Positions 23,745 to 64,000 of a stretch of 64,000 nucleotides of DNA are shown here, piece after piece (position 1 is the first letter of the stretch; every line of letters begins with the position of its first letter). The notes under the pieces were generated by a model, which worked only from the letters and a program-made list of their open reading frames with translations, searched no databases and was not told the origin of the DNA. The DNA comes from Microlunatus panaciterrae (lineage in GTDB: Bacteria; Actinomycetota; Actinomycetes; Propionibacteriales; Propionibacteriaceae): positions 372,001 through 436,000 of the forward strand of contig NZ_JAFBCF010000001.1 of the NCBI RefSeq assembly GCF_016907535.1, read 5' to 3'. A program made the translations under genes and the position numbers.

Positions 23745-23766
23745 GTCCCGCAGTCTAGGGGCACAT

Positions 23767-44485: not shown

Positions 44486-45583
44486 TCAGTCGACGGTGAC
44501 CTCGGCGCCCTTCTGGGCCGACGCATAGCAGGCGTCCACGACGACGGAGCGGGACAGGCCCATCTCGCCGCGGTGCTGCTCCCAGTCACCGGAGCGGACC
44601 AGGACCAGGAAGTCCTGCACCGCCTCGGTATGGCCGCCACTGGCTGGGATGTCGGGCTGCAGCTCTGCCGGCACACCCGCAACCTCGGTCCAGACGTCCA
44701 GCTTGGTGTAGGTGGCGGGAGCGCCGCCGAGCTCGAGCGTCGCACCACCCTCGGAGCCGTAGACGTTGACGTAGATCAGGTCATGCGGGATCCAGCTCGC
44801 CCAGCTGGTCTCCAGCAGCAGAGTGCTGCCGGTGTCCAGGCGCATGAAGGCCGTGGACAGATCCTCCACCTCGAAGTCGACCGCTCCGCTGCCGCCGGAC
44901 TTGGCACCGGCCAGCCCACCGGCGCCGCCGCGGCCACGCGGGCCGAACTCGGCGTAGGTCGCCGCACTGACGGTCGTCACCCGCGGCTCGTTCAGCAGAT
45001 GCATGGCCATGTCCAGCATGTGCACGCCGATGTCCATCATCGGTCCGCCACCGGCGGTGGCCATCTTGGTGAACCAACTGCCGAGCCCCGGGATGCCGGA
45101 GCGTCGGAGCCAGCCGGCCTTGGCGTAGTAGATGTTGCCCAGGATGCCCTGGTCGATGATCTTCTTCAGCGCCTTCACCTGACCGCCGCGACGGTGGTTG
45201 AAGAGCACGTCCAGCACCCGGTCGTTCGCACGGGCGGCGTCGACCATGGCCCTGGCCACGTCGGCGTTCTCAGCCATCGGCTTCTCCGACAACACATGTA
45301 CGCCGGCGTTCAGCGCGGCGATGGCCATCGGTCCGTGCAGGGCGGTCGGCGTGCAGATGCTGACCACGTCAAGGTCACCCTCGGCCAACAGCTGCTCCCA
45401 GTCGGCGAACCGGAGCTCTGCGCCGTAGCGGTCACCGAGCAGCTCCAGCCGGTCCGGCTCCATCCCGGCGAGACCGACGATCTCGACATCGTCGGCGGTC
45501 GAGTAGCCGATCAGGTGCTGCTCGCCAGCCCAACCGACACCGATCACGCCGGCCCGGATCTTGCGGTCGGTCGACTCAGACAT
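44486..45583 (-). CDS. Gfo/Idh/MocA-family NAD(P)-dependent oxidoreductase (paired with ThuA)
   Basis: A 365-residue sugar dehydrogenase. The Rossmann motif is GVIGVGWAGEQHLIGYS, the catalytic lysine is in LSEKPMAENADVARAMV, and the C-terminal beta domain has GGGPMMDIGVHMLDMAMHLL with the catalytic His/Asp. It overlaps the ThuA-domain gene by eight bases, an arrangement like the trehalose-utilisation thuAB pair, in which sugars are oxidised to 3-keto derivatives. A CCGAARCGYTTCGG-like site precedes the operon. Confidence 0.85.
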   Translation of the reverse strand: MSESTDRKIRAGVIGVGWAGEQHLIGYSTADDVEIVGLAGMEPDRLELLGDRYGAELRFADWEQLLAEGDLDVVSICTPTALHGPMAIAALNAGVHVLSEKPMAENADVARAMVDAARANDRVLDVLFNHRRGGQVKALKKIIDQGILGNIYYAKAGWLRRSGIPGLGSWFTKMATAGGGPMMDIGVHMLDMAMHLLNEPRVTTVSAATYAEFGPRGRGGAGGLAGAKSGGSGAVDFEVEDLSTAFMRLDTGSTLLLETSWASWIPHDLIYVNVYGSEGGATLELGGAPATYTKLDVWTEVAGVPAELQPDIPASGGHTEAVQDFLVLVRSGDWEQHRGEMGLSRSVVVDACYASAQKGAEVTVD

Positions 45584-46358
45584 CTGCGCTCTCCTTCTGC
45601 TTCAGCTCGGCCGCGAAGAACGGCTCGGGCTGGTTGCGTACCGCCGGCGGCTGGAAGTCGGCGCTGGCTGCCGGTGCGGCCCACTCGACCGCGTTCGCCA
45701 GCACCCGCTTGATGTCGGGGTGGTGATAGACCGGATAGTCCTGGTCGCCCGGCGAGAAGTAGAACACCTTGCCCTTGCCGCGTCGGTAGCAGACGCCGGA
45801 GCGGAAGACCTCGCCGCCGGTGAACGTCGAGAGGAAGACCAGCTCATCGGGCTCGGGGATGTCGAAGAACTCCCCGTACATCTCCTGCTCGTCGATGACG
45901 ATGGGCTGCGGGACGCCCTGAGCGATCGGGTGTGACGGCGAGACTGTCCAGACCAGCTCGGTGTCGCGCGAGTTCCGCCACGACAGCGAGCAGGAGGTGG
46001 CCATCAGCTTGATGAAAATCTTGCTGAAGTGCGCCGAGTGCAGCGCCAGCAGCCCCATCCCGCCCAGCACCCGCTGGTGCACCCGATCGACGACGGCGTC
46101 GTCGACCGTGTCATGGGCCATGTGGCCCCACCAGGTCAGCACATCGGTGTTCTCCAGCACCTCCTCAGTGAGCCCGTGGTCGGGCTCCTGGTGGGTGGCG
46201 GTGCGCACTTCGACGGCATCACCCAGCAGTTCTTTGATGCCTGCGGCGACAGCGCCGTGCATGCCCTCGGGATAGCGCTCGGCCATGGCCGCGCGGTCCC
46301 GCTCGGAGTTTTCGTGGTGGTTTTCGCCCCATACGGTGACGCGAATCGGAGAGTTCAC
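45576..46358 (-). CDS. ThuA-domain protein
   Basis: A 260-residue ThuA/class-I-glutamine-amidotransferase-like protein: IRVTVWGENHHENSERD, TDVLTWWGHMAHD, GLLALHSAHFSKIF and GKVFYFSPGDQDYPVYHHPDIKRVLANAVEW. ThuA-fold proteins accompany Gfo/Idh dehydrogenases in sugar catabolism; their exact reaction is still debated. GTG 46358 is chosen because homology starts there. An operator-like site at 46371-46385 lies 12 bases upstream, so the leader would be very short or the site internal to the promoter. Confidence 0.85.
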   Translation of the reverse strand: MNSPIRVTVWGENHHENSERDRAAMAERYPEGMHGAVAAGIKELLGDAVEVRTATHQEPDHGLTEEVLENTDVLTWWGHMAHDTVDDAVVDRVHQRVLGGMGLLALHSAHFSKIFIKLMATSCSLSWRNSRDTELVWTVSPSHPIAQGVPQPIVIDEQEMYGEFFDIPEPDELVFLSTFTGGEVFRSGVCYRRGKGKVFYFSPGDQDYPVYHHPDIKRVLANAVEWAAPAASADFQPPAVRNQPEPFFAAELKQKESADV

Positions 46359-46370
46359 ATGCCTAGTCTG

Positions 46371-46385
46371 CCGAAACGCTTCTGG
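46371..46385 (-). promoter_or_regulatory. LacI-type operator-like site before ThuA-Gfo/Idh
   Basis: Minus strand CCAGAAGCGTTTCGG, identical to the CCGAAGCGTTTCGG-type sites at 52620, 59193 and 61700 except for one changed or inserted base in one half-site. It lies in the 47-base gap between the divergent ThuA and FUSC starts. Confidence 0.6.
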
Positions 46386-46405
46386 GCGAATGTACGGGGG
46401 GCGGG

Positions 46406-47554
46406 ATGATGGTGGCCATGGACTCCGGGCGGTTCTCCCTCGAGCAGATGAAGTTGCGCGCATTCGACCTGACCGAGCGCACTGCCAGGGCCGGACGCGA
46501 CACCGCGCATCGCCGGGTGCAGCGCTGGCGGTCGCGGATTTTCATGATCACCCAGTGCGCAGTCACGGCCGGGCTGGCCTGGTGGCTGGCCCAGACAGTC
46601 ATCGGACACCGGCTGCCGTTCTTCGCCCCGGTGGCAGCGATCATCTGCCTGGGCTTCACCTTCGGTCAGCGCCTCCGTCGCGGGATCGAGGTCGCGATCG
46701 GGGTGGCCGTCGGGGTCTTCATCGGCGACGTGTTCGTCACGTACTTCGGCACCGGGGTGTGGCAGATCATCGTCGTCTGCCTGCTCGCCATGTCGATCGC
46801 CTCGCTGGTCGGCGCCGGCAACCTGACCATCATTCAGGCGGGTGTGCAGTCCATCATCATCATCACCCTGGTGCCTGACCCCAACCAGGCCTTCGGTCGC
46901 TGGCTGGATGCGGTGATCGGCTGTGCACTCGCCATGTTGGTGGCGACCATCGCCCCCAGTGCCCCGGTGCGCCGGCCACGGCTGCTGGCTGCCGGGTTCC
47001 TGCTGGAGATGGCCGCAACGCTGAGGGCGGTCGACCAGGCGCTGCGGGAGGGCGACCGGGACGCAGGTGACGCCGTGCTGGAGCAGGCCCGCCGCGGGCA
47101 GGACCAGATCGTCGAGCTGGACGAGGCCGTCTCCGAGGGCCTGGCTGTCGTGCGCTTCTCCCCGTTCCGACGGGGCCAGCTGCCGGCCGTCCAGGGCTAC
47201 GCCGACCTGCTGGCACCACTGGACCGGGGCAACCGCAACCTTCGGGTGCTGGCGCGACGCTGCGCCATCGCCCTCTGGCGCGGTGAGACCGTGCCGCTCG
47301 CCTATCTGGTGCTGCTCACCTCGGTGGCCGAGGTGGTGGATTTCATGGCCGGCGAGCTGTACGAACGGCGGCTGCCCGTGGCCGCCCGCGACCGGCTCAC
47401 CGCTCTCGGCCGGGAAAGCTCTCGGCTCAAGCTGGCCGAGTCGCTGTCGGCGATCGTCATCCTGGCCCAGGTCAGGTCACTGCTGTGTGACCTGCTGGAA
47501 CTGACCGGGCTCACCTACGCCGAGGCGCGCGAGGCGATCCCGGAGATGGACTAG
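46406..47554 (+). CDS. FUSC-family (aromatic-acid-exporter-like) membrane protein
   Basis: A 382-residue protein with an N-terminal basic amphipathic stretch, about six membrane helices (TQCAVTAGLAWWLAQTVIG, PFFAPVAAIICLGFTFGQRLRRGIEVAIGVAVGVFIGD) and a long cytoplasmic helical C-terminus. The FGQRLRRGIEVAIG-type motif is characteristic of FUSC/ArAE transporters thought to export aromatic or other organic acids. Its stop codon TAG lies within the CTAG target site of the IS481 element; the coding sequence is complete. Confidence 0.75.
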   Translation: MMVAMDSGRFSLEQMKLRAFDLTERTARAGRDTAHRRVQRWRSRIFMITQCAVTAGLAWWLAQTVIGHRLPFFAPVAAIICLGFTFGQRLRRGIEVAIGVAVGVFIGDVFVTYFGTGVWQIIVVCLLAMSIASLVGAGNLTIIQAGVQSIIIITLVPDPNQAFGRWLDAVIGCALAMLVATIAPSAPVRRPRLLAAGFLLEMAATLRAVDQALREGDRDAGDAVLEQARRGQDQIVELDEAVSEGLAVVRFSPFRRGQLPAVQGYADLLAPLDRGNRNLRVLARRCAIALWRGETVPLAYLVLLTSVAEVVDFMAGELYERRLPVAARDRLTALGRESSRLKLAESLSAIVILAQVRSLLCDLLELTGLTYAEAREAIPEMD

Positions 47555-51491: not shown

Positions 51492-52529
51492 GTGGGTGCA
51501 ACTGTGGATGTCGAATCCATGATCCAGACGGCGGTGGCGCTGGTCGCCCCGGGCAAGGGCATCCTGGCAGCGGACGAGAGCACACCGACGATGGCCAAGC
51601 GTCTTGCCGGGATCGGGGTGGAGTCGACCGAGCCACGACGCCGCGCCTACCGCGAGATCCTGTTCACGACCGCGGGGATCGGTGAGTTCATCAGCGGCGT
51701 GATCCTCTTCGACGAGACGATCCGCCAGCGCACGTCGGACGGCACGCCGTTCGCCGAGGTGCTGCAGAGCCAGGGGGTGATCCCGGGCATCAAGGTGGAC
51801 GGCGGCACGAAGGCGCTGGCCGGGTTCCCGGACGAGGTGGTCACCGAGGGGCTGGACGGACTGCGGGCGCGGCTGGAGGAGTACGCCGCCCTTGGCGCCC
51901 GGTTCGCCAAATGGCGCGCCGTCATCAAGATCGGGGACGCGCGTCCGACCACCTTCTGTGTCGAGGCGAACGCCCATGCCCTGGCGCGCTACGCCGCCCT
52001 CTCTCAGGAGGCCGGCCTGACGCCCATTGTCGAGCCCGAGGTGCTGATGGATGGCACCCACACCCTCGAGCGGTGCGCCGAGGTGACCGAGGCGACCCTG
52101 CGCGCCGTGTACGACCAGCTCAGCCGCCACCGGGTGATCCTAGAGGCGAGCCTGCTCAAGCCGAACATGGTGCTGTCAGGCAAGGACTGCCCCATCCAGG
52201 CGACGACCGACGAGGTCGCCGACGCGACGATCACCGTGATGCGGCGGACCGTGCCTACGGCGGTGCCGGGGATGGTCTTCCTGTCCGGCGGCCAGTCCGA
52301 CGAGCAGGCCACCGCGAACCTGGACGCCCTCAACCGGCGGACACCGCAGCCGTGGGAGCTGAGCTTCTCCTTCGGCCGCGCGCTCCAGGCCCCCGTGCTG
52401 CACGCCTGGGCCGGGGACGAGGCCAACCGCGACTCCGCCCAAGCCGCCCTACTCCACCGCGCCCGACTCAACGGCGCGGCCCGGCATGGGACGTACAGCG
52501 CCGAGATGGAACACCTGGTGTCGCACTAG
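51492..52529 (+). CDS. Class I fructose-bisphosphate aldolase
   Basis: A 345-residue Schiff-base aldolase. APGKGILAADES near the N-terminus, the second lysine in KWRAVIKIG, the Schiff-base lysine in ILEASLLKPNMVLSG, and FLSGGQSDEQAT are all class I hallmarks. GTG 51492 is listed; GTG 51504 is an alternative. Actinobacteria usually depend on class II aldolases, so this may be a second, catabolic copy feeding the sugar locus that follows. Its stop is 90 bases before a LacI-type site. Confidence 0.9.
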   Translation: MGATVDVESMIQTAVALVAPGKGILAADESTPTMAKRLAGIGVESTEPRRRAYREILFTTAGIGEFISGVILFDETIRQRTSDGTPFAEVLQSQGVIPGIKVDGGTKALAGFPDEVVTEGLDGLRARLEEYAALGARFAKWRAVIKIGDARPTTFCVEANAHALARYAALSQEAGLTPIVEPEVLMDGTHTLERCAEVTEATLRAVYDQLSRHRVILEASLLKPNMVLSGKDCPIQATTDEVADATITVMRRTVPTAVPGMVFLSGGQSDEQATANLDALNRRTPQPWELSFSFGRALQAPVLHAWAGDEANRDSAQAALLHRARLNGAARHGTYSAEMEHLVSH

Positions 52530-52619
52530 ACCCGGGTGAAAGGCCGGTCCCCTGGAGCGGCCAGGTGCTGCCGGCCGGTGCTTGCCCTCGCCGCTGCGCC
52601 TCGGTAGAGTCCCAGCGAG

Positions 52620-52633
52620 CCGAAGCGTTTCGG
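52620..52633. promoter_or_regulatory. LacI-type operator before the two coupled Gfo/Idh genes
   Basis: CCGAAGCGTTTCGG, flanked by G and C to give a 16-bp near-palindrome centred on CG, lies 69 bases upstream of the oxidoreductase GTG (52703). It matches the sites at 59193 and 61700. Confidence 0.75.
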
Positions 52634-52702
52634 CTTGGGTGTCGGGGCCGGGCATGCTCCGATCAGTGCGAGCAGTCGGCCCGGCCAGGGAGGGATCGGT
52701 CA

Positions 52703-53701
52703 GTGGTCGGGTTGCGTGTCGGCGTCATCGGGGCTGGTCGGATCGCCCAGCGGCAGATCTCCGCCTGGCGGGCTGTGGGCGCCGAAGTCGGTACCCTCGC
52801 CTACGACCCGCCGTTCCCGCAAGAGGCCGCGGGCGCCTCCTCTCCCTTCGACGCCCTCGACGACCTGCTCTCCTGGGTGGACATCGTTCATGTCTGCGCG
52901 CCGGCCGACTCCCGCCGCGACCTCTGTCTGGCCGCCATCGGGGCTGGTCGGTCCCTCGTCTGTGAGCAGCCCCTGGGTCGGACGTTCGATGAGGCGCTGA
53001 TGATCGCACGGGCCTCCTTGGACGCCGGGGTCTCGGTGTTGCCGTCCCAGGTCGGCCGGTTCGTCCCCGAGCGCACCACCCTGCAGGCAGCAGTGAGCAG
53101 CGGCCGCATCGGCACCCCGGCGATCCTCCGCTTCACCTGCTCCGTCCCCAGCCCATCTCCTGACGCCGGCGCGCCGACGCTCTTCGACCTGGTCGCCGAG
53201 GTGCTGATCGAGGACCTGGACCTGGCCCGCTGGATCGCCGGGGAGGTCACCGGGGTGTACGCGGTGGCGAACTCGGGCGCCGGCGACGGGCAAGGGCCGA
53301 GCACCATGGTGGCGCAGGTCACCCTCACCCACGCCGAGGGCGCCATCACCCATCTCCAGGGACAGTGCGGTCCGCCGGGTCTCGAGCGCCGTAGCTCCTT
53401 CGATGTCGCCGGTCACGCCGGCCGACTGACGTTTCGGTCAGAGGCGTCGGGCCTCGTCATCGACAACCCGCCCGGAGCCGGGCTGATGGCACCAGGGCTC
53501 GCCGACGAGAGCCCCGAGCTGGCACAGATCCGGGCGTACGTCAGCACGCTGCGGGCAGGTGCGCCATCTCCGGTGAGCCTGCTGGACGGAGTCGCGGCCG
53601 TGGGTCTCGCTGAGGCGGTCTCCCGGTCAGCCGGGACCGGGCAGCCGGTCGCCTTCGAGGACTACCTCACCCGACTCGAGGAGCTGAGCAGCCATGTCTG
53701 A
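52703..53701 (+). CDS. Gfo/Idh/MocA-family oxidoreductase (first of a coupled pair)
   Basis: A 332-residue oxidoreductase with Rossmann motif GVIGAGRIAQRQISAW. The usual catalytic EKP is replaced by CEQPLGRTFDEAL (Lys to Gln), and the later DLVAEVLIEDLDLARWIAG lacks the usual GG-D-H arrangement. It may therefore be a non-catalytic partner or use altered chemistry. GTG 52703 follows AGGGAGG. The frame is open far upstream through the aldolase antiframe, so the start rests on homology and ribosome site. It overlaps the next gene by eight bases. Confidence 0.8.
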   Translation: MVGLRVGVIGAGRIAQRQISAWRAVGAEVGTLAYDPPFPQEAAGASSPFDALDDLLSWVDIVHVCAPADSRRDLCLAAIGAGRSLVCEQPLGRTFDEALMIARASLDAGVSVLPSQVGRFVPERTTLQAAVSSGRIGTPAILRFTCSVPSPSPDAGAPTLFDLVAEVLIEDLDLARWIAGEVTGVYAVANSGAGDGQGPSTMVAQVTLTHAEGAITHLQGQCGPPGLERRSSFDVAGHAGRLTFRSEASGLVIDNPPGAGLMAPGLADESPELAQIRAYVSTLRAGAPSPVSLLDGVAAVGLAEAVSRSAGTGQPVAFEDYLTRLEELSSHV

Positions 53702-54770
53702 GCGAGCGCCGACAGGCCAGCACGGCCTGGCTGGGCAGCGGCAGCTGAAGGTGGCCGTCCTGTCAGCAGCCCATGGGCACGCGGTCGGCTACCTGCGCAA
53801 CCTGCACCAGCGGGACGACGTCGAGGTCGTGCTTGCCGATCCGGACGCGCCGGTGGACGGCGGTGCAGGGCTCCGAGGCGCCCGCCTCGCCAGCGAGCTT
53901 GGCATCGACTACTTCGACAGCTATCAGCAGGCGCTGGACTGGCAGCCGAACGCCGTCATCGTCTGCACGGAGAACACCCGTCATCGTGCCGTCGCCGAGC
54001 TGGCCATCAAGGCCGGCTGTCACGTGCTGTGCGAGAAGCCGCTGACCACCACGGTCGAGGACGCTGAGCTGCTGTGCCGTGCGGCGGACGAGGCTGGCGT
54101 CACCCTGAGCGTCGCCTATCCCCTGCGCCAGGCCGCCTCCTTCCAGCAGCTGCGGCAGGCGGTGATCGACGGTCGGCTGGGTGAGCTGGTCGCCATTCTC
54201 GGCACCAACAACGGCCAGCTTCCCGCCGACCGGCGCTGGTTCGTTGAGCCGGAGCTCTCCGGCGGAGGCGCCATCGTCGACCATGTCGTGCACTGCGCGG
54301 ACCTCATCGATGCGCTGCTGGGCGTCACCCCCGTCGAGGTCAGGGCTGTCTCGAACCGCATCCTGTGGCCGCTGGTCGATAGCGGCGTTGAGACGGGCGG
54401 GATGGTGTCCCTGCGGTACGGCTCGGGGCTGATCGCCACCATCGACTGCTCGTGGAGCCAACCCGCAAAGGCGGCCACCTGGGGCGGCCTGACGTTGGAG
54501 GTGATCGGGACGAAGGGCTCGGTCCGGATCGACCCGTTCGCGCCGCACGTCGGCGGATACGGCCGCGACGGCGCCGAATGGCTCGCAGTCGGGACTGACC
54601 TGGATGCACAGATGCTCGACGACTTCGTCCACAGCGTCCGGCACGGGACCCCTCCGGCAGTCTCGGCGGCAGCTGGGCTGCGCACTGTCCAGGTGATGGC
54701 GTCTGCGCTTCGGTCGGCAGCCTCCGGCGGCCAGACCGTCACGCTTGGCGTCCAGCCGCGCAAGGACTAG
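53694..54770 (+). CDS. Gfo/Idh/MocA-family oxidoreductase (second of a coupled pair)
   Basis: A 358-residue sugar oxidoreductase with catalytic lysine in LCEKPLTTTVEDAE and the C-terminal site GGGAIVDHVVHCADLIDALLG. The N-terminal Rossmann loop is atypical (VLSAAHGHAVGYLRNL instead of GxGxxG), as in some family members that act on carbohydrate acids or amides. It overlaps the previous gene by eight bases, so a hetero-oligomer with the lysine-lacking partner is plausible. Its TAG stop shares CTAG with the convergent GH130 gene. Confidence 0.82.
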   Translation: MSERAPTGQHGLAGQRQLKVAVLSAAHGHAVGYLRNLHQRDDVEVVLADPDAPVDGGAGLRGARLASELGIDYFDSYQQALDWQPNAVIVCTENTRHRAVAELAIKAGCHVLCEKPLTTTVEDAELLCRAADEAGVTLSVAYPLRQAASFQQLRQAVIDGRLGELVAILGTNNGQLPADRRWFVEPELSGGGAIVDHVVHCADLIDALLGVTPVEVRAVSNRILWPLVDSGVETGGMVSLRYGSGLIATIDCSWSQPAKAATWGGLTLEVIGTKGSVRIDPFAPHVGGYGRDGAEWLAVGTDLDAQMLDDFVHSVRHGTPPAVSAAAGLRTVQVMASALRSAASGGQTVTLGVQPRKD

Positions 54771-55879
54771 CCGGCGGTTTCCCGACCCGAGGTCTGATCG
54801 ACCCGGTCCAGCCGGGCCACGCCGATCTGTGAGTCGGCCATGCCGTAGAGGACGTAGAGCACCTTCTCGATCTCCACGATGGCGGTCGGGAACACGACAT
54901 TCGACACCTGACCGGTCGTCTCCTCGGCGGTCTCCGGGCGCATCATCGGCTCGACGGTGCGGGCCACGACTCGCTCGGGATGATCGGCGTCGAGGATCAT
55001 CGCACCGGCCGCATAGTTGACGTTCTTCTGGTTCTCTGGTTGGAAACCGTCGCCGTCAATGCTTCCGCTGACGCCGTGGTGCAGCAGCAGCCAGCCTTCG
55101 GGGATCCTGATCGGAGGTGGCCCGCCGCCGATCTTGAGTGACTCCCAGTCGTACTGTGAGCCGGCCACGAACTGGTGGCCGAAGGGACGGCACAAGGCGC
55201 TGATGTCCGCCTTCGCGTCCTCGGCGCGGACGTAGGAGATCCAGATGGCTGCCCGGTCGTCGACCGTGCCTGCCGGCAAGGGCGCCTGCTCACCTTCGCG
55301 CAGGAAGTCAAGCTCCCACATGGGCCGGTGCAGCAGCGCGAAACAGGGCACCCCGTCGGGTCCCGGCACGGCTTCGGGGAACCAGACGACATCCTTGTTG
55401 GGGAAGAGGTTCAGGTCGGTGTCCAGCTCGTCGGCATAACCGAACTGCACCGGCCCGAGGCGCTTCCACTCGACAAGATCAGTGGAGACCGCCAGCGCCG
55501 GATGCGGGCCCAGCGGGCCGAACGCGACGTAGGTCATGACATAGCTCTGCAGCTCGGGGATCCAGGTCATCCGAGGGTCCTCTACCCCGCCATGATCAGT
55601 GCCGTGCTCCCAGCCGCGGTCGGGCGCCAGGACGACGCCCTGTCGTTCGACCCGGTCCGGCACCCCATCTTCGATGATGATCTCCCCCTTGCCGACCCTG
55701 GACACGTTGCCCTCCGCCACCAGGCGCGGGAAGATGTACAGCCGCTCGTCCGGTCCCCAGGCCGCCGCCGGGTTGAGCACCCCTTCGACCTCAAGCGGCT
55801 CTCCGGGTTCGGGGCGCATCAACGTCCCCACTCGCGTAAGCGTGTACGGAACCTCGGGAACGGTGGTGTTGGCAGGCAC
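54767..55879 (-). CDS. GH130-family beta-mannosyl phosphorylase/mannosidase-like enzyme
   Basis: A 370-residue five-bladed propeller protein: VLNPAAAWGPDERLYIFPRLV, GVEDPRMTWIPELQSYVMTYVAFG (the GH130 Glu-Asp signature), NKDVVWFPEAV, WLLLHHGVSG and NVVFPTAIV. GH130 enzymes split beta-mannosides, usually by phosphorolysis giving mannose-1-phosphate. It is the fourth gene of the leftward operon with the sugar ABC transporter. GTG 55879 follows AAGGA at a seven-base gap. Whether it is a phosphorylase or a hydrolase depends on phosphate-binding residues I cannot assign with confidence. Confidence 0.82.
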   Translation of the reverse strand: MPANTTVPEVPYTLTRVGTLMRPEPGEPLEVEGVLNPAAAWGPDERLYIFPRLVAEGNVSRVGKGEIIIEDGVPDRVERQGVVLAPDRGWEHGTDHGGVEDPRMTWIPELQSYVMTYVAFGPLGPHPALAVSTDLVEWKRLGPVQFGYADELDTDLNLFPNKDVVWFPEAVPGPDGVPCFALLHRPMWELDFLREGEQAPLPAGTVDDRAAIWISYVRAEDAKADISALCRPFGHQFVAGSQYDWESLKIGGGPPPIRIPEGWLLLHHGVSGSIDGDGFQPENQKNVNYAAGAMILDADHPERVVARTVEPMMRPETAEETTGQVSNVVFPTAIVEIEKVLYVLYGMADSQIGVARLDRVDQTSGRETAG

Positions 55880-55927
55880 AGGAAATCCTTTCGGTGAAGG
55901 TGATGGTCGAGATCTCGGTGTCAGTGG

Positions 55928-56848
55928 TCAGCCCTTGACGGCGCCACCCACGACACTGGCCACCAGGTAGCGCTGCAGGAAGACGTAGGCCACCAGCAGC
56001 GGGGCGGCAACGATGATCGTCGCAGCCGACAGCAGGCTCCACTGGCTGGTGTAGGTGCCCTGGAAGGCGAACAATCCCAGCGTCACCGGAGATTTCGTCT
56101 GGTCCGGCAGCAGAATGGTGGCCAGGATGATGTCGTTCCAGACCCCGATCGCCTGCAGGATGAAGATCGTCGACAGGACGGGCTTGAGCAGCGCTGGCAG
56201 GAAGCCGAAGAGGTAACGCAGATAGCCGACGCCGTCGAGGGCCGCCGCCTCGTCGAGCTCGACCGGGACCGACTTGACGTAACCGGCGACGAGCAGCGGG
56301 CCGACACCGACTCCGGCCGCCATCATCAGCATGTAGCCCAGTCGGGTGTCGTACAGGTTGAGCCGCAGCACCAGCTGGAACTGCGTCACCAGCGAGTTCG
56401 GCAGGAACAACATGGCGACGAACAACCCGTACCAGAGCTTGGTGTGCTTCAGGTAGCCACGCGACACCGGGAACCCCACGAGCAACGAGATGAACGTTCC
56501 CAGACCGGCCGCGACCGCGGTGTACAGGATGCTGTTCAGCATGTAGGCGCCGAAGTTGCCCTGACGCCACGCCTGGCTGAAGTTGTTGATCGCCAGGTGC
56601 TTGACCATCCCCAGCGGGTTGGAGAAGAACTCGGCGTTGCTCTTCAGTGCGGTGTTCAACAGGAAGAGCAACGGAAACAGGTACAGCACCATCACGACCA
56701 GCACCGCGAGGTAGGACAACAGCCTGCCCAGCGGGAATCGCCGAGGACGATGCTCGTGCGCCGGTGTGGGCTCGGGTCGGCGCCCGCCCGAGTCTCTCCT
56801 CGCCGCGGTGCCCTCGGCCGGCTCTTTGCTGACCGCCTGGTTGCTCAC
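55928..56848 (-). CDS. Carbohydrate ABC transporter permease, MalG type
   Basis: A 306-residue permease with a long charged N-terminus (~40 residues), six membrane segments and EAA loop DEAAALDGVGYLRYLFGFLP. The start overlaps the stop of the previous permease by four bases. The GH130 gene follows after 48 bases. No ATPase is encoded, so it must share one, as is usual for actinobacterial sugar importers. Confidence 0.87.
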   Translation of the reverse strand: MSNQAVSKEPAEGTAARRDSGGRRPEPTPAHEHRPRRFPLGRLLSYLAVLVVMVLYLFPLLFLLNTALKSNAEFFSNPLGMVKHLAINNFSQAWRQGNFGAYMLNSILYTAVAAGLGTFISLLVGFPVSRGYLKHTKLWYGLFVAMLFLPNSLVTQFQLVLRLNLYDTRLGYMLMMAAGVGVGPLLVAGYVKSVPVELDEAAALDGVGYLRYLFGFLPALLKPVLSTIFILQAIGVWNDIILATILLPDQTKSPVTLGLFAFQGTYTSQWSLLSAATIIVAAPLLVAYVFLQRYLVASVVGGAVKG

Positions 56849-57756
56849 AGCCTCTCCTCCCGCTTGCGCAGGTATGCCAGCACGATCAGCGAGATGACCC
56901 CTACCATGACGAACTGGACGACCGAGATGGCGGCCGCGTAGCCCTGTGACTGCGCCGAGCCGCCAGCCGCACTGCCGCCGAAGCCCTGGGTGAAGATCGC
57001 CAGCGACAGCACCTGGGTGGCGTCGTTGTTCGGTCCGGTCAACACGTAGATCAACTGGTAGCTCTGCAACGATCCCACTATGCAGAGCAGCATGTTCGCC
57101 GTCACCGACGGCGCCAACAACGGGTAGGTGATCAGCCGCAGCTTCTGCCAGCTGCTCGCCCCGTCGATGCTGGCGACCTCGTACAGCTCAGCTGGGATGG
57201 CCTGCAGCCCGGCAAGGTAGATCACCACTGCGACGCCGATGCCTGCCCAGACCTGGACGAAGATCACCAGGTACAGGGCGATCTTGGGATCACCGAAGAA
57301 GGCGGTGTTGGCGCCGAACCAGTGCCAGATCGCCGCACCCGGGCTCGCTGTCGGGTTGAACATCAGCGACCAGATGAGGCCGATCACCGTCACGCCCAGG
57401 ATGGTGGGAAGGAAGACGACGGACCGGTAGAAGGTCGTCCCGCGCAGCGGTTGGTTGAACAGGACGGCGATCAGCAGTGCCAGCACGTTCTGGATGATGG
57501 TCACCAGGAATGCGAAGATGAAGGTGTTCTTCAACGCGTTCACGTTGTAGCCGAGATGGGCCGCGGAGAAGAACGACTTGTAGTTCTCCACTCCCACCCA
57601 GTTGACCGGCAGGAACGGCAGCGCGCGTACGTCGGTGAAGGAGATCACGAAGACGGCCACCGCCGGCAGGAGGGCGAACACGAGTATCGGCAGGAGACCT
57701 ACCGCGAACGACGCCCGCACGGTGGCCCGGCGTCCGAACACGAAATAGCTCGACAC
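56845..57756 (-). CDS. Carbohydrate ABC transporter permease, MalF type
   Basis: A 303-residue permease with six membrane segments and EAA-type loop YEVASIDGASSWQKLRLITYP. GTG 57756 follows GGAGG by nine bases; the longer open frame upstream is low-complexity Arg/Pro sequence running through a hairpin and is not coding. It is separated from the binding-protein gene by 76 bases that contain a strong hairpin. Confidence 0.87.
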   Translation of the reverse strand: MSSYFVFGRRATVRASFAVGLLPILVFALLPAVAVFVISFTDVRALPFLPVNWVGVENYKSFFSAAHLGYNVNALKNTFIFAFLVTIIQNVLALLIAVLFNQPLRGTTFYRSVVFLPTILGVTVIGLIWSLMFNPTASPGAAIWHWFGANTAFFGDPKIALYLVIFVQVWAGIGVAVVIYLAGLQAIPAELYEVASIDGASSWQKLRLITYPLLAPSVTANMLLCIVGSLQSYQLIYVLTGPNNDATQVLSLAIFTQGFGGSAAGGSAQSQGYAAAISVVQFVMVGVISLIVLAYLRKREERL

Positions 57757-57780
57757 GACTGCGGACCTCCTTCCGTTAGT

Positions 57781-57825
57781 CTCCGCAGGGCCGGCCGAGG
57801 GAGTGCCTCGGCCGGACCTGCGGAG
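57781..57825 (-). terminator. Intra-operon hairpin between binding protein and permease genes
   Basis: CTCCGCAGG (57781-57789) and CCGGCCGAGG (57791-57800) pair with CCTCGGCCGG (57806-57815) and CCTGCGGAG (57817-57825): 19 base pairs, one mismatch, five-base loop. It follows the binding-protein stop by seven bases and lacks a U-tract, fitting a partial terminator or 3' stabiliser that raises binding-protein levels relative to permeases. Confidence 0.7.
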
Positions 57826-57832
57826 AGAGGGT

Positions 57833-59173
57833 TCAGAAGCCGGCGGCCCAGTCCGCCTGAGAGGCCGCGGCGGCCTTCTCGGGCGTCTGGCTGCCCAGTG
57901 GCGCGATGCCGGAGTAGTTGAACGGGAACTGAGCCTTCGCACCCGCCTTGGTGTTCGCGATCCAGATGGTGTCCCAGGCGGGCTGGAACGTCTTGGTGTA
58001 CGGCGCGATCGAGTTGTAGAACGGCGTCAGCTCGATGTTCGGCTGGGAGGGGGCGAAACCCGCCTCCTTGAGGAACAGCTTGTAGTTCTCCGGCTCGGAG
58101 AAGAAGGCCAGGTAGGCCAGCGCCGCACCGACGTTCTTCGAGTTGCTCGGCACGGCGAACGTCAGCTCGACCTTGCCACCCAGGAACGCATTGTCTGCGG
58201 CGTTGTCACTGGACGGCAGCGGGAAGTAGCCGTACTTGAAGTTCGGGCCACCGGCCGCATCGATGGTGGTCTGGTTCCACGTCCCGTCCGACATCATGGC
58301 GAACTGTCCCTTGACGAATCCGGCGGTCATCGTGTTGTAGGAGACACCGGCGAAGTTCGGCTCGGCGTAGTCGTACAGCGCCTTCACCTTGGTCAGGACC
58401 TCCAGCTGCTTGCCGTCGGTGAGCTTGACGCTCTGATCCCACAGACCCTTGGCCAGATCTTCCTTGTCCTTCTGGGTCGGGTAGATGTTCTGCACCACCC
58501 CCAGCATGTTGACGCCGGCGCTGTCCTTGCCGGAGATGCCGAGTGGCACGACCCCCTTCGACTTCAGCGTCTTGCAGACGGTCATGAACTCCGACCAGGT
58601 GGTGGGGATCTTCAGGCCGTACTTGTCGAAGATCGTCTTGTTGTAGTAGACGCCGGTGTAGTAGCTCAGCCCGGTCGGCACCGTGTACTGCTTGCCCTTG
58701 TACTTGATGGAGTCCAGCACCGTGGGCGTGTAGTTCTTCATGAACGGCTGGTTGGTGAGGTCCACCAGTCCGCCGGCATCAGCGAGCCGCGCGTCGTCAC
58801 CCATATTGGAGGCCGGCACATAGCTGGGGAGCTCCTTGGGGCCGGCCAGACCGACATCGATGCTGCCCGCGCTCAGCCGCGACGAGTGGGCAGCCGCGTA
58901 GTTCTCGTTCGGGATCGCGGTGAACTTCACCTTGACGTCGGGATATTTCGCCGCGAATGCCTTGTTCACCGCCTTGAAACCGGCATCGGATCCGGTTGCG
59001 CTGGAGACCACGACATTCAGGTCACCCTTCGGGGCGGCTGCCGGGCTCTGGTTGCCGCTGGACGCGCCCTGGCTGCCTGAGCAGCCGGCGAACAGCGCCA
59101 GGCCGAGCAGCGCTGCCAGGAGAGCACTGATGCCGCGCCGTGTCCTGATCATCTGGAACTTCTTCGTTGCCAT
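57833..59173 (-). CDS. Carbohydrate ABC transporter substrate-binding lipoprotein (SBP family 1)
   Basis: A 446-residue binding protein. The signal MATKKFQMIRTRRGISALLA continues to the lipobox LALFAGC. Family-1 features are DLNVVVSSATGSDAGFKAVNKAFAAKYPDVKVKF (two stretches), TTWSEFMTVCKTLKSKGVVPLGI and FAMMSDGTWNQTTIDAAG. ATG 59173 follows GGAGG. First gene of the operon SBP-permease-permease-GH130; a LacI-type operator overlaps its leader 20-33 bases upstream of the ATG. Confidence 0.88.
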   Translation of the reverse strand: MATKKFQMIRTRRGISALLAALLGLALFAGCSGSQGASSGNQSPAAAPKGDLNVVVSSATGSDAGFKAVNKAFAAKYPDVKVKFTAIPNENYAAAHSSRLSAGSIDVGLAGPKELPSYVPASNMGDDARLADAGGLVDLTNQPFMKNYTPTVLDSIKYKGKQYTVPTGLSYYTGVYYNKTIFDKYGLKIPTTWSEFMTVCKTLKSKGVVPLGISGKDSAGVNMLGVVQNIYPTQKDKEDLAKGLWDQSVKLTDGKQLEVLTKVKALYDYAEPNFAGVSYNTMTAGFVKGQFAMMSDGTWNQTTIDAAGGPNFKYGYFPLPSSDNAADNAFLGGKVELTFAVPSNSKNVGAALAYLAFFSEPENYKLFLKEAGFAPSQPNIELTPFYNSIAPYTKTFQPAWDTIWIANTKAGAKAQFPFNYSGIAPLGSQTPEKAAAASQADWAAGF

Positions 59174-59192
59174 GATGCCTCCGGGAGATCTA

Positions 59193-59206
59193 CCGAAGCG
59201 TTTCGG
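59193..59206. promoter_or_regulatory. LacI-type operator in the divergent ABC transporter/Gfo-Idh region
   Basis: CCGAAGCGTTTCGG, extended to 16 bp by flanking A and T, lies in the 115-base gap between the divergent binding-protein (59173) and oxidoreductase (59289) starts. One site could repress both directions. Confidence 0.8.
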
Positions 59207-59288
59207 TTGATGGAAGGTAACATCACGGTCAGTGCCGGTCAATGCACCGGCTCGCAGCACCTCCCCCACCGACGTCGAGAGGCCCGAC

Positions 59289-60515
59289 ATGACCCCGGCT
59301 GAACCACACCCGGAACCGGCTCAGGACGGGCCGGCTGAGTGCCCGCTCGGGCTGGGGGTCGTCGGTGCCGGCGGCTTCGGCACCTTCGTCGGCGATGCCG
59401 CAGCCCAGCTGCCCGACCTGCGGGTCGTGGCTGTGACCGACGAGGACCCGGCCAGGGCCGAGCGCCTCGCGGTCTCGACTGGGGCCGCTGTGGCTGCCGA
59501 CCTGACCACCCTGCTGGCCGATCCGGCGGTGCAGGCGGTGGTTATCGCCACCCCACCCAGTACCCACGCCGCACTGGCCGTCAGCGCCCTCAATGCGGGC
59601 CGTCACGTCTTCTCCGAGAAGCCGATGGCGCTGAGCCTCGAGGACACCCGTCGGGTCAGCACGGCGGCCAGGACGTCGGGCTGCGCCTATGTGGTGGACC
59701 ACGTGATCAGGTACAACCCGATCATCGTCGCCGTCCAGAGGTTGCGCGACGAAGGGCTGGTCGGGCAGCTGCAGCGGTTCAGCTTCGAGAACGATGCGGC
59801 AGACGAGTTCCTGCCGGCCGAACACTGGTTCTGGGATCCGGAGCTCAGCGGTGGCATCCTGCTCGAGCACGGCGTCCACTTCTTCGATGTCGCGGCAGCG
59901 CTCGCCGACGCTCCGGCAGCAGAGGTGCAGACCATGGGCTACCGGCGCGCCGACGGCCGGGTGGACACCGTGGTGGCCACGGTCAGGCACTCCAACGGGG
60001 TGCTGGCCACCCATGCGCACGGCTTCAGCCACGCCAGCCGGGCGGAACGCCAGCTGATGCGGCTGGACTGTGGGCTCACCCAGCTCCGGATCCACGGCTG
60101 GATCCCCCTCCTGGCCGAGATCGACGGCTGGGTCGACGACCAGGCCGCGCAGGAGTACGAGAGGCTGCCGGCACGCCTCCACCAGTTGCTCGACGTTCCT
60201 GGCGGCCGGCTTCAGGGAACGGAGACGGTCACTGTGCGGGTGCAGCGCGACGCCGCCGAGGCGGCGACACACTCGCGGGACCAGGACTTCCGGGCTCCGC
60301 ACCGGGTGACGGCCACGATCGACCTCGGCGGGCCGGCGGCGCATCTGCGGGTCTACTCCGAGAGCGTCCGGGCCGCCCTCAGCGATCTGGCCACCTGTGC
60401 GCGGACCGGCGGGCAACCGCGAGCCGGTGTTGAGGCGGGTGCCGCGGCGGTCCGGGTCGCTGTCGCCGGCACCCGTGCACTCGAGACGGGGACAACCGTC
60501 CAGGTCCGTGTCTAG
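59289..60515 (+). CDS. Gfo/Idh/MocA-family oxidoreductase
   Basis: A 408-residue dehydrogenase: Rossmann motif GVVGAGGFGTFVGDA, AVVIATPPSTHAALAVSAL, catalytic lysine in FSEKPMALSLEDTRRV, and GGILLEHGVHFFDVAAAL. ATG 59289 follows GAGAGG. It diverges from the ABC operon and converges with the lacI-type gene. The substrate is presumably the imported sugar or its cleavage product. It is the third such enzyme within 8 kb. Confidence 0.85.
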   Translation: MTPAEPHPEPAQDGPAECPLGLGVVGAGGFGTFVGDAAAQLPDLRVVAVTDEDPARAERLAVSTGAAVAADLTTLLADPAVQAVVIATPPSTHAALAVSALNAGRHVFSEKPMALSLEDTRRVSTAARTSGCAYVVDHVIRYNPIIVAVQRLRDEGLVGQLQRFSFENDAADEFLPAEHWFWDPELSGGILLEHGVHFFDVAAALADAPAAEVQTMGYRRADGRVDTVVATVRHSNGVLATHAHGFSHASRAERQLMRLDCGLTQLRIHGWIPLLAEIDGWVDDQAAQEYERLPARLHQLLDVPGGRLQGTETVTVRVQRDAAEAATHSRDQDFRAPHRVTATIDLGGPAAHLRVYSESVRAALSDLATCARTGGQPRAGVEAGAAAVRVAVAGTRALETGTTVQVRV

Positions 60516-60524
60516 CAGAACCGT

Positions 60525-61541
60525 TCACGCAGGTGGGGCGGCCGTCGACCCCCGGATGATGAGTGACGCCGGCTGGATCTCGACGTCGGTGACGGGCTTG
60601 CCGTCGATCAGGTCGAGCAGCAGTCCGGCCGCCGCCCGGCCGAGTCCGTGCGGCGACGTCAGCAGCGTGGTGAGCGGTGGCCGCATGAAGGAGCCGAGCT
60701 GGATGCCGTCATAGCCTGTGACCGAGACCTGGTGCGGCACATGGAAGCCGATCTCGGTCGCCCGGGCGATGAAGCCGATGGCCGTCAGGTCGTTCGCGCA
60801 GACGACTGCCGTCGGTGGCTCCGGGAGGCTGAGCAGCTCGTCGGCTGCCCGCGACCCTCCCTCGGAGGTGAAGTCGCCCTGAACCACCGGGCCGTGCGGC
60901 AGCCCTGCGGCATCCAGACCCCGCCGCCAGGCCTTCAGTCGCTGAGCCGAATGGATCATGCCCTTGCCGCCGCTCACGTGGGCGATCCGCCGATGCCCCA
61001 GCCCCACCAGATGGGCCATCAGGTCGCGCATGCCCGGCTCCGGGTCCTGTCGCACTGTCGGGAAAGGGCACCCGGGCCCGGCGTTGATCGCCACCGTCGG
61101 CAGTCCGAGCATGGCCAGTAACGGGATCCGTGGATCGCGCAGCCGGATGTCGGTGAGGAACATCCCGTCGATCCGACGGGCCAGGGCCAGCCGCCGACAG
61201 CGGTCGATCATGCCTGAGCGGCTGGACGCCAACTGCAGCACCAACGCGAAGTCACGCCTTTCCAGGATCGACTCGACTCCGCCGATGAACCCGGCGAAGA
61301 ACGGGTCGGCCTCGAGCACCTCCGGTTTCCGCTGCAGCACCAGCCCGAGAGCGAAGGCACGATTGCCGGACAGGCTGCGTCCGCGGACCGAGGGCACCCA
61401 GCCGGTGCTCCGGGCCACCTCAGCGATCCGCGCCCGGGTCTCCTCGGACACGCCGGGACCACCGTTGAGGGCGACGGACACAGAGCTGATCGAGACGCCC
61501 GCCTCCCTGGCGACGTCGGCGATCGTCACGCGCTTGCCCAT
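60525..61541 (-). CDS. LacI-family transcriptional repressor
   Basis: A 338-residue regulator. The helix-turn-helix with hinge is VTIADVAREAGVSISSVSVALNG, then a periplasmic-binding-protein-like effector domain (ALGLVLQRKPEVLEADPFFAGFIGG, VSVTGYDGIQLGSFMRPPLTTL). ATG 61541 follows GGAGA at six bases; MGEWRQ at 61562 is a weaker alternative. Its gene sits between two CCGAARCGYTTCGG sites, the shape of site LacI proteins bind, so it is the likely regulator of the whole locus. The effector is probably a sugar from the pathway. Confidence 0.9.
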   Translation of the reverse strand: MGKRVTIADVAREAGVSISSVSVALNGGPGVSEETRARIAEVARSTGWVPSVRGRSLSGNRAFALGLVLQRKPEVLEADPFFAGFIGGVESILERRDFALVLQLASSRSGMIDRCRRLALARRIDGMFLTDIRLRDPRIPLLAMLGLPTVAINAGPGCPFPTVRQDPEPGMRDLMAHLVGLGHRRIAHVSGGKGMIHSAQRLKAWRRGLDAAGLPHGPVVQGDFTSEGGSRAADELLSLPEPPTAVVCANDLTAIGFIARATEIGFHVPHQVSVTGYDGIQLGSFMRPPLTTLLTSPHGLGRAAAGLLLDLIDGKPVTDVEIQPASLIIRGSTAAPPA

Positions 61542-61699
61542 CAGCTGTCTCCACTCACCCATGGCCCGCAGGTCAGGCCCACCACCGCGCACGACCGGAT
61601 ACGAGACCGTATCGGCCACTGCTGCTGGAGCAAAGGGTAAATGACGAGCAGGGATCACTGTTGACCCCGGCGGATTCACGCAACTAGAGTCGCCGAGAA

Positions 61700-61713
61700 C
61701 CGAAACGTTTCGG
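61700..61713. promoter_or_regulatory. LacI-type operator, perfect palindrome, before the unknown protein and lacI
   Basis: CCGAAACGTTTCGG is an exact 14-bp palindrome in the 209-base gap between the repressor (61541, minus) and the large unknown gene (61751, plus). It starts 38 bases upstream of the latter's ATG. It may serve both genes, giving autoregulation. Confidence 0.8.
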
Positions 61714-61750
61714 CTGAAGATGATCACCCAGATAGAGGCGAGGCGGCATC

Positions 61751-64000
61751 ATGAACACTCCCCCAGAGGCTTCGACTCGGCTCGAGGCCGGCGGCGGACG
61801 AGTGGTGTTCCAGCGCGGTGTGGACGGGTTCGGCTACCACCTCGAGGTCCAGGACACCCTGGACTGGCGCCGGGTGACCGCGGAGCACAATGCGCTCATC
61901 AGCGGGCCCACGTTCGGACTGCGGCCAGAGAACGTCGACCTCGAGGGTGACGTGCTCACCCTGTCCGGGACGAAGGAGCTGGCCGATGGGCGCAGCTACT
62001 CCTGGCGCGGCCTGGTCGAGCCCGTGTCCGGCACCAGCTGGTTCCACTGGGTCGTGATCGTCGAGTCGGCCGGGTTCCCCATCGGAACAAGCGGTGCCGT
62101 CGAGCCGCAGATCGCCCTCGACCTGGGGCCGCTGCCTCCGTACGAGCGTGGTGACCATGTCTGGTTCAAGACCCTGGTGCAGAACCCCACCCAGTGGAAC
62201 AACGAGGGTCGGGGCAACGATTTCCCGGCGCTGTACTACTACGACCCCTATCTCAAGGCGAAGTTCCAGATGTTCTTCGATATGAGCCCGATGAGCTGGA
62301 TGGGGCCCGAGACGATCAAGCGGTTCCAGGGGTACCGCTGCGGGCTGCGGCGGCTCGACCATGGTCATCCCGCGGCGGAGATCGGTTTGCTGGCGGAGGC
62401 GCAGGGCGGTCAGCGGTTCCCCGCCGGCAGCCAGGTCTTCTCCTGGTACGTCTCCGTGCAGCACCTCTCCGACGAACCGACCCCACCGCGTGAGCAGGAC
62501 GCCCTGACAGCGCTGGTGTCCGACTGCCTTGCCCTGCTGCCGCCCATCAACGGGTACTGGCCCGAGCGGGCCACCAGCTGGCGGGAGCTGGCCGACGGCT
62601 GCGCCGTGGATCTGATGGACGACGAGCACTGCTGGGGAAGAGATGATACGGGTGAGTACCTGCGCTCCTACGTGGATGGTCACTCCGATGCCTGGGCCGT
62701 GACCGTCGCCGCACGCGGTCGGACGTACGACGGCGACGGACCCTGTCTGGAGGCAGCCCTGTGGGCTCTCGATCCGTTGGATGACCTCGCCCGATCGTTG
62801 GCCGGCGACCCGTATCCCGAGCTCCGCAGCCGGCTGCGGGCCTTCATCACCGCCGAGGTGCGCAGACCACACTGTGCGATTCTCAGCGGTCGCACCGACC
62901 AGCCGCTCTTCATGGGCACCTGGCAGTACGTCTATCTGCTGGCGGAGGTGTGGCGGCTGTTCGAGGGCACGGAGGACGACGAGCTGCAGAAGCTCATCCA
63001 GAACGAGATCGACACGGTACTGGTGCCGATGGCCCACACCGTGGCCTACCTGTTTCCGCTGCAGTTCGACAAGGCGTCGCTGACCGCGGTGGGCCCGGGA
63101 CCGGCCTATCCGGTGGCGGGCACGTTCGCCCTGCTGATGCTCGACGTCGCCGCGGCGACCGGCGAGCGCAGCTATCAGCACGAGGCCGAGCGGGCGCTTC
63201 GTGCCCTCGCGCACGTCCCGATCGACGCGGCGCTGCAGGAGGTCTTCCTGGTCGCCCACGCACTGGATGCGGCCGACCGGCTCTGCACCTTGACCGGTGA
63301 TCAGGAGTGGGAGCGGGCACGAGAGTACTTCCGGGCCCAGACGCTGCGGATGATGTACTGGTACAACGACAACACCTCCCCGCGGACGGCGCTCTCGCGC
63401 CACCTCGGCATGTTCCTGGCCTGCGCCAACATCGGCTACCCGGCCTTCTTCGAGAACATCGAGGTGGCTGCCCGACTGGCGACCGCTGCCGGCACCGAGG
63501 ACGACCCGTCCGACAGCCTGCGCATCCTCGATTACGCTCGCCGCACCAACCAGTCGTTCATGCCGGTGTGCTCGCCCGACATGTACGGGCCGATGCCGGT
63601 CGGCTACATCCCGTTCGAGGACGTCCCCATCCTGGAGGGGCCGAACGACGCGGGCTTCCTCGGGCAGGAGATCTATGGCGCCGGCTTCACCTTCCGTGCC
63701 CACCTGTTGTGGGACGCGCTCGCCGGGGCCGACCACAGTGAGGTGATGGTGGTCAACACCGACTCCTACCGCGGCGGCACCACGTCGGCACCCACCCGGC
63801 TCACCTTCCTTGCCTACAACAGCACTGCCGCAGCGGTGAGCAGTGAGATCAACTTCCCGTGCCTCGCCGACGGCAGAACGGGGACGCTCGAGGTGTCACC
63901 TCCCGGAGAGAGTGCAGTCCGCCGCCGAGTCGACGAGGGCCACGGGATCCGGCTGAGCCTGCCGGGGGGTGGTTGGGCCAGGCTGACCCTCACCCTCGAT
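61751..64000 (+). CDS. Large unrecognised protein, probably carbohydrate-active, truncated by the window edge
   Basis: The frame is open from ATG 61751 to the last base: 750 residues with no stop. I do not recognise the family. Residues ~1-235 look beta-rich (RVVFQRGVDGFGYHLEVQDTLDW, WFHWVVIVESAG, GSQVFSWYVSVQHL). Residues ~240-640 look helical and toroid-like with many aromatic and acidic residues (ATSWRELADGC, HCAILSGRTDQPLFMGTWQYVYLLAEVWR, LMYWYNDNT-type MMYWYNDNTSPRTALSRHLG). From ~650 a second beta-rich part begins (TRLTFLAYNSTAAAV). No signal peptide. This layout resembles glycosidases or lyases with an alpha/alpha barrel, but that is inference. Confidence 0.75.
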   Translation, partial: MNTPPEASTRLEAGGGRVVFQRGVDGFGYHLEVQDTLDWRRVTAEHNALISGPTFGLRPENVDLEGDVLTLSGTKELADGRSYSWRGLVEPVSGTSWFHWVVIVESAGFPIGTSGAVEPQIALDLGPLPPYERGDHVWFKTLVQNPTQWNNEGRGNDFPALYYYDPYLKAKFQMFFDMSPMSWMGPETIKRFQGYRCGLRRLDHGHPAAEIGLLAEAQGGQRFPAGSQVFSWYVSVQHLSDEPTPPREQDALTALVSDCLALLPPINGYWPERATSWRELADGCAVDLMDDEHCWGRDDTGEYLRSYVDGHSDAWAVTVAARGRTYDGDGPCLEAALWALDPLDDLARSLAGDPYPELRSRLRAFITAEVRRPHCAILSGRTDQPLFMGTWQYVYLLAEVWRLFEGTEDDELQKLIQNEIDTVLVPMAHTVAYLFPLQFDKASLTAVGPGPAYPVAGTFALLMLDVAAATGERSYQHEAERALRALAHVPIDAALQEVFLVAHALDAADRLCTLTGDQEWERAREYFRAQTLRMMYWYNDNTSPRTALSRHLGMFLACANIGYPAFFENIEVAARLATAAGTEDDPSDSLRILDYARRTNQSFMPVCSPDMYGPMPVGYIPFEDVPILEGPNDAGFLGQEIYGAGFTFRAHLLWDALAGADHSEVMVVNTDSYRGGTTSAPTRLTFLAYNSTAAAVSSEINFPCLADGRTGTLEVSPPGESAVRRRVDEGHGIRLSLPGGGWARLTLTLD

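Follow-up and report, generated by a model that had tools for sequence, protein, structure and literature searches.

A putative LacI-controlled beta-mannoside regulon in Microlunatus panaciterrae with a GH130 protein and a large protein of no recognised family

A 64,000-nucleotide stretch of the Microlunatus panaciterrae genome (the window; positions 372001-436000 of a single contig of 4,068,014 bases) holds a real, well-bounded regulon made up of a common core plus unusual additions. The core genes encode a LacI-family regulator, an ATP-binding cassette (ABC) sugar importer and a GH130 protein. The other genes encode three Gfo/Idh proteins (GfoA, GfoB and GfoC), a ThuA-family protein paired with a fourth Gfo/Idh protein (GfoT), and a large protein referred to here as BIG. 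This may be a LacI-controlled catabolic regulon for an imported beta-mannoside-containing oligosaccharide, with BIG as a glycoside-active enzyme beside GH130; the reading is tentative and is given slightly less than an even chance. The regulator, the sugar-binding protein with two permeases, the GH130 and the three Gfo/Idh genes that the original prediction placed at this locus were all borne out by open reading frames (ORFs) and Pfam matches. G120 is a genome of the same family with an orthologous locus.

Locus layout

52703..53701, plus strand, GfoA, Gfo/Idh protein without the catalytic Lys (EQP) and His (IEDLD)
53694..54770, plus strand, GfoB, Gfo/Idh oxidoreductase with EKP and HVVH, 8-base overlap with GfoA
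54767..55879, minus strand, GH130 family protein (PF04041, 110.4 bits)
55928..56848, minus strand, ABC sugar permease B (PF00528, 25.5 bits, slightly below the cut-off of 26.4; 70% to G120)
56845..57942, minus strand, ABC sugar permease A (PF00528, 47.6 bits; 70% to G120), real start probably inside this ORF
57833..59173, minus strand, importer sugar-binding protein (SBP), lipoprotein-like by eye (PF01547, 122.6 bits), probable start ATG 59173
59289..60515, plus strand, GfoC, Gfo/Idh oxidoreductase with EKP (PF01408, 103.3 bits)
60525..61541, minus strand, LacI-family regulator (PF00356, 48.4 bits, and PF13377, 107.5 bits), probable start ATG 61541
61751..64015, plus strand, BIG, large protein, 754 aa when completed with the flanking genome (the window ends at 64000)
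45576..46463, minus strand, ThuA-family protein (PF06283, 113.1 bits)
44486..45583, minus strand, GfoT, Gfo/Idh oxidoreductase with EKP and GVHMLD (PF01408, 90.9 bits), downstream of ThuA with an 8-base overlap

Operators and extent of the regulon

The genes share a LacI-type operator, CCGAARCGYTTCGG, which has three exact copies in the 4.07 Mb genome (window 52620, 59193 and 61700), against about 0.12 expected from base composition alone. All three sit at promoters of this locus. A 10-base operator core, with at most one mismatch, gave four matches in the window versus a shuffle mean of 0.52, a count reached by 1 of 100 shuffles. The one-mismatch scan of the genome gave 15 and 15 matches per strand versus 6 and 5 in the reversed control. 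The sites in the window are:

52620..52633, operator CCGAAGCGTTTCGG, ahead of GfoA
59193..59206, operator CCGAAGCGTTTCGG, between SBP and GfoC
61700..61713, operator CCGAAACGTTTCGG, between LacI and BIG
46371..46384, one-mismatch operator CCGAAACGCTTCTG, ahead of ThuA-GfoT

The 60525..61541 product has both the helix-turn-helix and the periplasmic-binding-like domain of a LacI regulator, and we infer that it binds these four sites. The orthologous locus of G120 carries CCGAAACGTTTCGG ahead of its SBP gene and is the only one of 16 other loci scanned that has the operator core.

The gene for a class I fructose-bisphosphate aldolase (ORF at 51492; PF00274, 462.9 bits) lies upstream of the first operator; therefore, the regulated unit begins near 52620 and the aldolase was rejected as a regulon member. 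At the other end, the one-mismatch copy at 46371 makes it likely that the regulon extends to the ThuA and GfoT pair. Since the listed ThuA ORF begins ahead of this operator, a GTG near 46358, just beyond the site, is probably the true start. The original prediction had the locus start at 51492, which takes in the aldolase and leaves out 44486-46384, where the likely regulon also reaches.

Distribution and neighbourhoods of BIG

Searches of 57 relatives, 293 order genomes and 396 phylum genomes each found BIG once, in this genome; the genome sets are samples. The expectation that the full gene set would co-occur in related genomes was therefore not borne out. A relative in Paenibacillus psychroresistens (37-38%) came from the genome-contig scan; in that organism's family BIG occurs in 1 of 104 genomes (the same one), and in its phylum in 6 of 398, counting that genome. 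Distant relatives lie on 4 of 72,556 plasmids, three of them first met as weak matches, and the viral collection has a relative on a single contig, L021. The viral-contig scans gave no relative with queries P0003, P0004 and A1 and one contig only with A2, A3 and A5, and phage records searched with P0003 gave none. A weak Burkholderia match to an integrase (E 1 over 9% of the query) was left out as a relative. Besides this genome, BIG is sporadic in Bacillota, Bacteroidota and Alphaproteobacteria.

Twelve BIG loci were compared, from the window, Paenibacillus, five Bacillota, four plasmids and L021. The fifth Bacillota copy (G1004), at a contig end, was kept outside the alignment and is 99.9% identical to the G979 copy over 861 residues. 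GH130 stands near BIG in five of the twelve, namely the window and the four plasmids, of which both Asticcacaulis plasmids are closely related. In the neighbourhood search that the original prediction proposed as a check, GH130 near BIG does recur, yet only on distant plasmids. All four plasmid loci also hold an SDR dehydrogenase gene, which adjoins BIG in three; on the Spirosoma plasmid it lies two genes past GH130 on the opposite strand. LacI adjoins BIG in the window and in 5/5 Bacillota. An SBP, a GH5-like gene and two permeases are also present in four of these five Bacillota loci; a contig end interrupts the fifth. The Paenibacillus locus has importer, two-component and alpha-L-rhamnosidase genes, with no GH130 or Gfo/Idh homologue (E <= 1e-5) in the approximately 56 kb read. 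In L021 a GT4 gene is directly upstream of the BIG relative (both within L021:2381-5967), and the other end of the contig is phage-like by eye.

GH130 is encoded elsewhere in the genome in 4/6 Bacillota genomes with BIG. Six plasmids carry a GH130 at least 60% identical to the Novosphingobium one, and BIG is on four of them; the two that are not among the BIG matches are one with a GH130-GH13-GT4 row and one that is unannotated. The row lies on a Sphingomonas plasmid (L096:5992-9697), has a GH130 of the type that neighbours BIG on plasmids and hints at a synthesis or turnover module. On the Novosphingobium plasmid (L023:6287-13102), BIG-SDR-GH130 lies near Ku and Hsp20 genes, a setting that is perhaps stress-linked.

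Predicted fold of BIG

The original prediction described the product at 61751 as a protein of more than 750 residues in no recognised family, and this description stands; the complete 754 aa protein has no match in Pfam or NCBIfam. One PDB profile search gave no match, and an 11-sequence profile gave one 10-bit match to a transporter, which was not taken as real. No signal peptide was seen. Structure prediction, proposed as a check together with the family search, gave only poor models (pLDDT 46.0 and 48.5). These models suggest a GalM-like beta-supersandwich followed by an (alpha/alpha) toroid, a combination known from several glycoside hydrolase and phosphorylase families. YidC, which tops the Foldseek list for the first, full model, was rejected as a relative and is read as a shared beta-fold only. 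Membership in GH76 was dropped; there was no Pfam match, and the best PDB match had 16 bits (E 0.026) with the clade B profile and disappeared with the 11-sequence profile. Families missing from the listing of the structure aligner are not thereby ruled out.

Enzymes such as GH94 and GH65 consist of two domains, a beta-supersandwich and an (alpha/alpha)6 domain. BIG seems to resemble them in the domain order suggested by the models, in a size near 750 aa and in the apparent absence of a signal peptide. As with GH94/GH65-type enzymes, sugar ABC importers are encoded close to it, as seen at the window, Paenibacillus and Bacillota loci. However, it differs from them in having no sequence match to GH94/GH65-type family models, Pfam or the PDB, and the models are too weak to place active-site residues. 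The likeliest reading is that BIG represents a new family of glycoside-active enzymes working in the cytosol.

Two other enzyme types were considered. BIG could be a polysaccharide-lyase-like enzyme resembling PL26 or BACCELL_00875, which belongs to PL27. Of the four Foldseek matches under 1e-4, two are to BACCELL_00875 chains; PL26 chains align over 376-382 residues, and the Paenibacillus relative lies near alpha-L-rhamnosidase genes. However, these alignments have an rmsd of 17-22 A and a TM-score of at most 0.26, YidC ranked higher, and none of the regulon's genes was recognised as uronate-related, so that a lyase is very improbable. BIG could also be an AGE-type sugar epimerase or isomerase that converts one residue for use by GH130. 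The mannan route offers a precedent, in which mannobiose 2-epimerase serves mannosylglucose phosphorylase. BIG has no AGE Pfam match, and this role is considered quite unlikely.

The GH130 protein

The score of the GH130 protein against PF04041 (110.4 bits, curated cut-off 26) places it in the family. Its GGVEDPR aligned with the EDPR of solved GH130 chains, within the xDPR motif in which we take the catalytic acid to lie. The best PDB matches are beta-1,2-mannobiose and 1,2-beta-oligomannan phosphorylases, and by sequence the protein resembles beta-1,2-mannoside enzymes. A Glu adjoins the catalytic acid, and K162 (the lysine of LFPNK) aligned with K151 of 9fj8 (LFPEK); its equivalence to Lys199 of BT3780 is drawn from spacing only. 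GH130 phosphorylases, unlike the hydrolases, are expected to have three basic residues that bind phosphate. In this protein the motifs LFPNK, LLHRP and LHHGV are present and mostly common to relatives in the order, while approximately residues 163-230 did not align to solved chains. No signal peptide was seen by eye, and the protein looks cytosolic.

In the available portion of PMC4599007, membership of the GH130_NC group is linked with a Glu beside the catalytic acid, and beta-1,2 specificity with a lysine; phosphorylases are described there as cytoplasmic and hydrolases as secreted. A phosphorylase seems likelier than a hydrolase. Since hydrolases are reported for GH130_NC alongside these phosphorylase-like features, beta-1,2-mannoside phosphorolysis is only a guess, with hydrolysis as the alternative.

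Conservation of the core in the order

Of 117 order genomes, 47 (this one among them) have homologues of the GH130 protein at E <= 1e-30, and the full-length ones have 55-64% identity. Reading covered twelve GH130 stretches, one around a second copy in this genome and 11 in other genomes; one of the twelve (L066) is interrupted by a contig end. G120 has, in order, LacI (55%), SBP (59%), the permeases (70%) and GH130 (64%). By tblastn (E <= 1e-15), LacI was found in 9/12 of the stretches, the SBP of this locus only in G120, and BIG, GfoA and ThuA in 0/12. This lineage therefore seems to have added BIG, the three Gfo/Idh genes and ThuA-GfoT to the core, and in no other genome was the full combination of genes seen. 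The shared operator, the G120 core and the GH130 sequence together support one part of the original prediction, namely that the locus is under LacI control and that a mannoside is imported and acted on by GH130.

The second GH130 of this genome (59%) lies in L069 (genome 3256000-3275500) at locus positions 9352-10407; a GH36-like gene and two Gfo/Idh-like ORFs are found no more than about 6 kb away. In 9/12 stretches GH130 is followed by a secreted-looking protein related to PDB 7tem (profile E 4.5e-42), for example at L063:10796-12910, L065:7451-9409, L067:10863-12758, L070:10771-12795 and L071:8109-9998; four of these proteins were scanned and had no Pfam family. Kinship of BIG with this protein (profile A9) was rejected, the hhalign probability being 1.4%.

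Gfo/Idh proteins and ThuA

Catalysis in Gfo/Idh enzymes depends on the Lys of EKP and the His of a second motif. One Gfo/Idh protein had been predicted to lack the lysine; this is GfoA, with EQP in place of EKP, and the catalytic His is gone as well (IEDLD). GfoA lacks both residues expected of an active dehydrogenase and looks catalytically dead. Both residues are kept in GfoB (EKP, DHVVH), GfoC (EKP, EHGVH) and GfoT (EKP, DIGVH). GfoA homologues (E <= 1e-40) were found in 54 of 196 order genomes, including this one. The relatives of GfoA keep EKP and an H in 11/11 other loci examined, and in the same 11/11 GfoB follows; GfoA/GfoB is a conserved tandem pair. The wider context of four of these pairs was read by eye; two pairs come after a sugar ABC importer that differs from the one at this locus, one comes before a GH13-like gene, and no GH130 was recognised in the four. 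GfoC has one relative besides itself (E <= 1e-60) in 196 order genomes, and the 34 kb around that relative contain none of this locus's other genes tried (E <= 1e-15).

ThuAB exemplifies a Gfo/Idh-ThuA pathway. The locus is like such pathways and like glycoside 3-dehydrogenase pathways in having several Gfo/Idh genes, ThuA, one operator type and a glycoside enzyme. An oxidation-assisted route, as raised in the original prediction, is possible. GfoB, GfoC or GfoT would turn the imported glycoside into a keto-glycoside by oxidation, its cleavage by elimination or hydrolysis would fall to BIG or ThuA, and another Gfo/Idh protein would reduce the product. Exact copies of BIG's operator stand ahead of GfoA-GfoB and GfoC, with the one-mismatch copy ahead of ThuA-GfoT, and an SDR gene accompanies BIG on all four plasmids. 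Beta-elimination of C3-oxidised glycosides is known, according to the accessible part of PMC10628242. However, the Paenibacillus, Bacillota and L021 stretches have no homologue (E <= 1e-5) of a window Gfo/Idh protein, ThuA or the plasmid SDR, and GfoA has neither catalytic residue. The NCBIfam glycoside and disaccharide 3-dehydrogenase models give at most 40 bits on the four Gfo/Idh proteins, far under the cut-offs of 750 and 650, and the four other GfoA/GfoB contexts read lack a recognised GH130, two of them following a different importer. The route is considered unlikely.

It is also conceivable that an ordinary LacI-ABC-GH130 operon acquired BIG, GfoA-C and ThuA-GfoT by chance, with no joint pathway. 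BIG is limited to this one of 293 order genomes, the single relative of GfoC does not share its neighbourhood, and an IS481-type transposase ORF lies at 47551-48546. However, an exact operator stands ahead of each of BIG, GfoA-GfoB and GfoC, and the genome has no fourth exact copy, which makes a chance assembly improbable.

Proposed mechanism

In the proposed beta-mannoside regulon, a sugar inducer, which we infer, would free LacI from the operators of GfoA-GfoB, importer-GH130, GfoC and BIG, and more weakly from that of ThuA-GfoT. The ABC importer would take in a small beta-mannoside-containing oligosaccharide. GH130 would remove its terminal mannose; the bond cut is most likely beta-1,2, and the most likely reaction is phosphorolysis, which yields mannose 1-phosphate. 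Either ahead of GH130 or following it, BIG, as a hydrolase or phosphorylase of an undescribed family, would cut a further residue from this oligosaccharide. GfoB, GfoC and GfoT may convert the residue that is released or modified between its sugar and keto-sugar forms, and GfoA would be a partner of GfoB without catalytic activity.

Several observations weigh against this proposal. The GH130 protein falls under every NCBIfam GH130 equivalog cut-off, scoring 110.2 bits against NF052550 (beta-1,2-mannobiose phosphorylase; cut-off 450), and its residues matching phosphate-binding positions could not be aligned to a solved chain. Both models of BIG are poor, their toroid matches point to no single family, and YidC heads the list for the full model. 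The stretch read has no GH130 in 7/12 BIG loci, the other GH130 loci of the order lack BIG (12/12 read), and the dehydrogenase and ThuA homologues are absent from the Paenibacillus, Bacillota and L021 stretches, as given above. The GH130_NC members studied in PMC4599007, as far as its available portion goes, hydrolyse and lack phosphate-binding residues, which favours a hydrolase.

A further-reaching version is considered somewhat unlikely. Here BIG would found a new cytosolic family that acts with GH130 and NAD(P)-dependent oxidoreductases on a modified or oxidised beta-mannoside residue resisting ordinary glycosidases, and the combination would have been assembled more than once, here and on plasmids of Bacteroidota and Alphaproteobacteria.

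Other genes in the window

The IS481-type transposase ORF (minus strand; PF00665 and PF13011) is located between ThuA-GfoT and the main locus. Close to the locus is a GH29 alpha-L-fucosidase gene (48663-50132, minus strand, PF01120), with no operator core nearby at up to one mismatch in the window scan. A GNAT-domain gene follows BIG. Further away are a gene for a GH2-type glycosidase (20417-22267, minus strand) and an adjoining sulfatase gene (22311-23891, minus strand), possibly a sulfated-glycan locus.

Comparison with known systems and significance

One of the closest described systems is the GH130 beta-1,2-mannoside phosphorylase locus Teth514_1788/1789 of Thermoanaerobacter (PMC4264767, available in part). 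Both loci join GH130 with ABC transporter genes, and the sequence found here resembles the beta-1,2 enzymes. Unlike this locus, the Teth514_1788/1789 cluster is linked to GDP-mannose synthesis, and the available part of that source describes no LacI regulon with Gfo/Idh genes and BIG. Within the terms and collection covered, no title or abstract joins GH130 with several Gfo/Idh genes or describes BIG.

GfoA is a clear example of the loss of Gfo/Idh catalytic residues within a conserved tandem pair. Should BIG prove to be an enzyme, it would be a candidate for a new carbohydrate-active family, and this locus offers a ready test system, since it has an importer, the regulator's operator is defined and the family of the partner enzyme is known. 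The recurring company of BIG and GH130 would indicate an undescribed class of mannoside.

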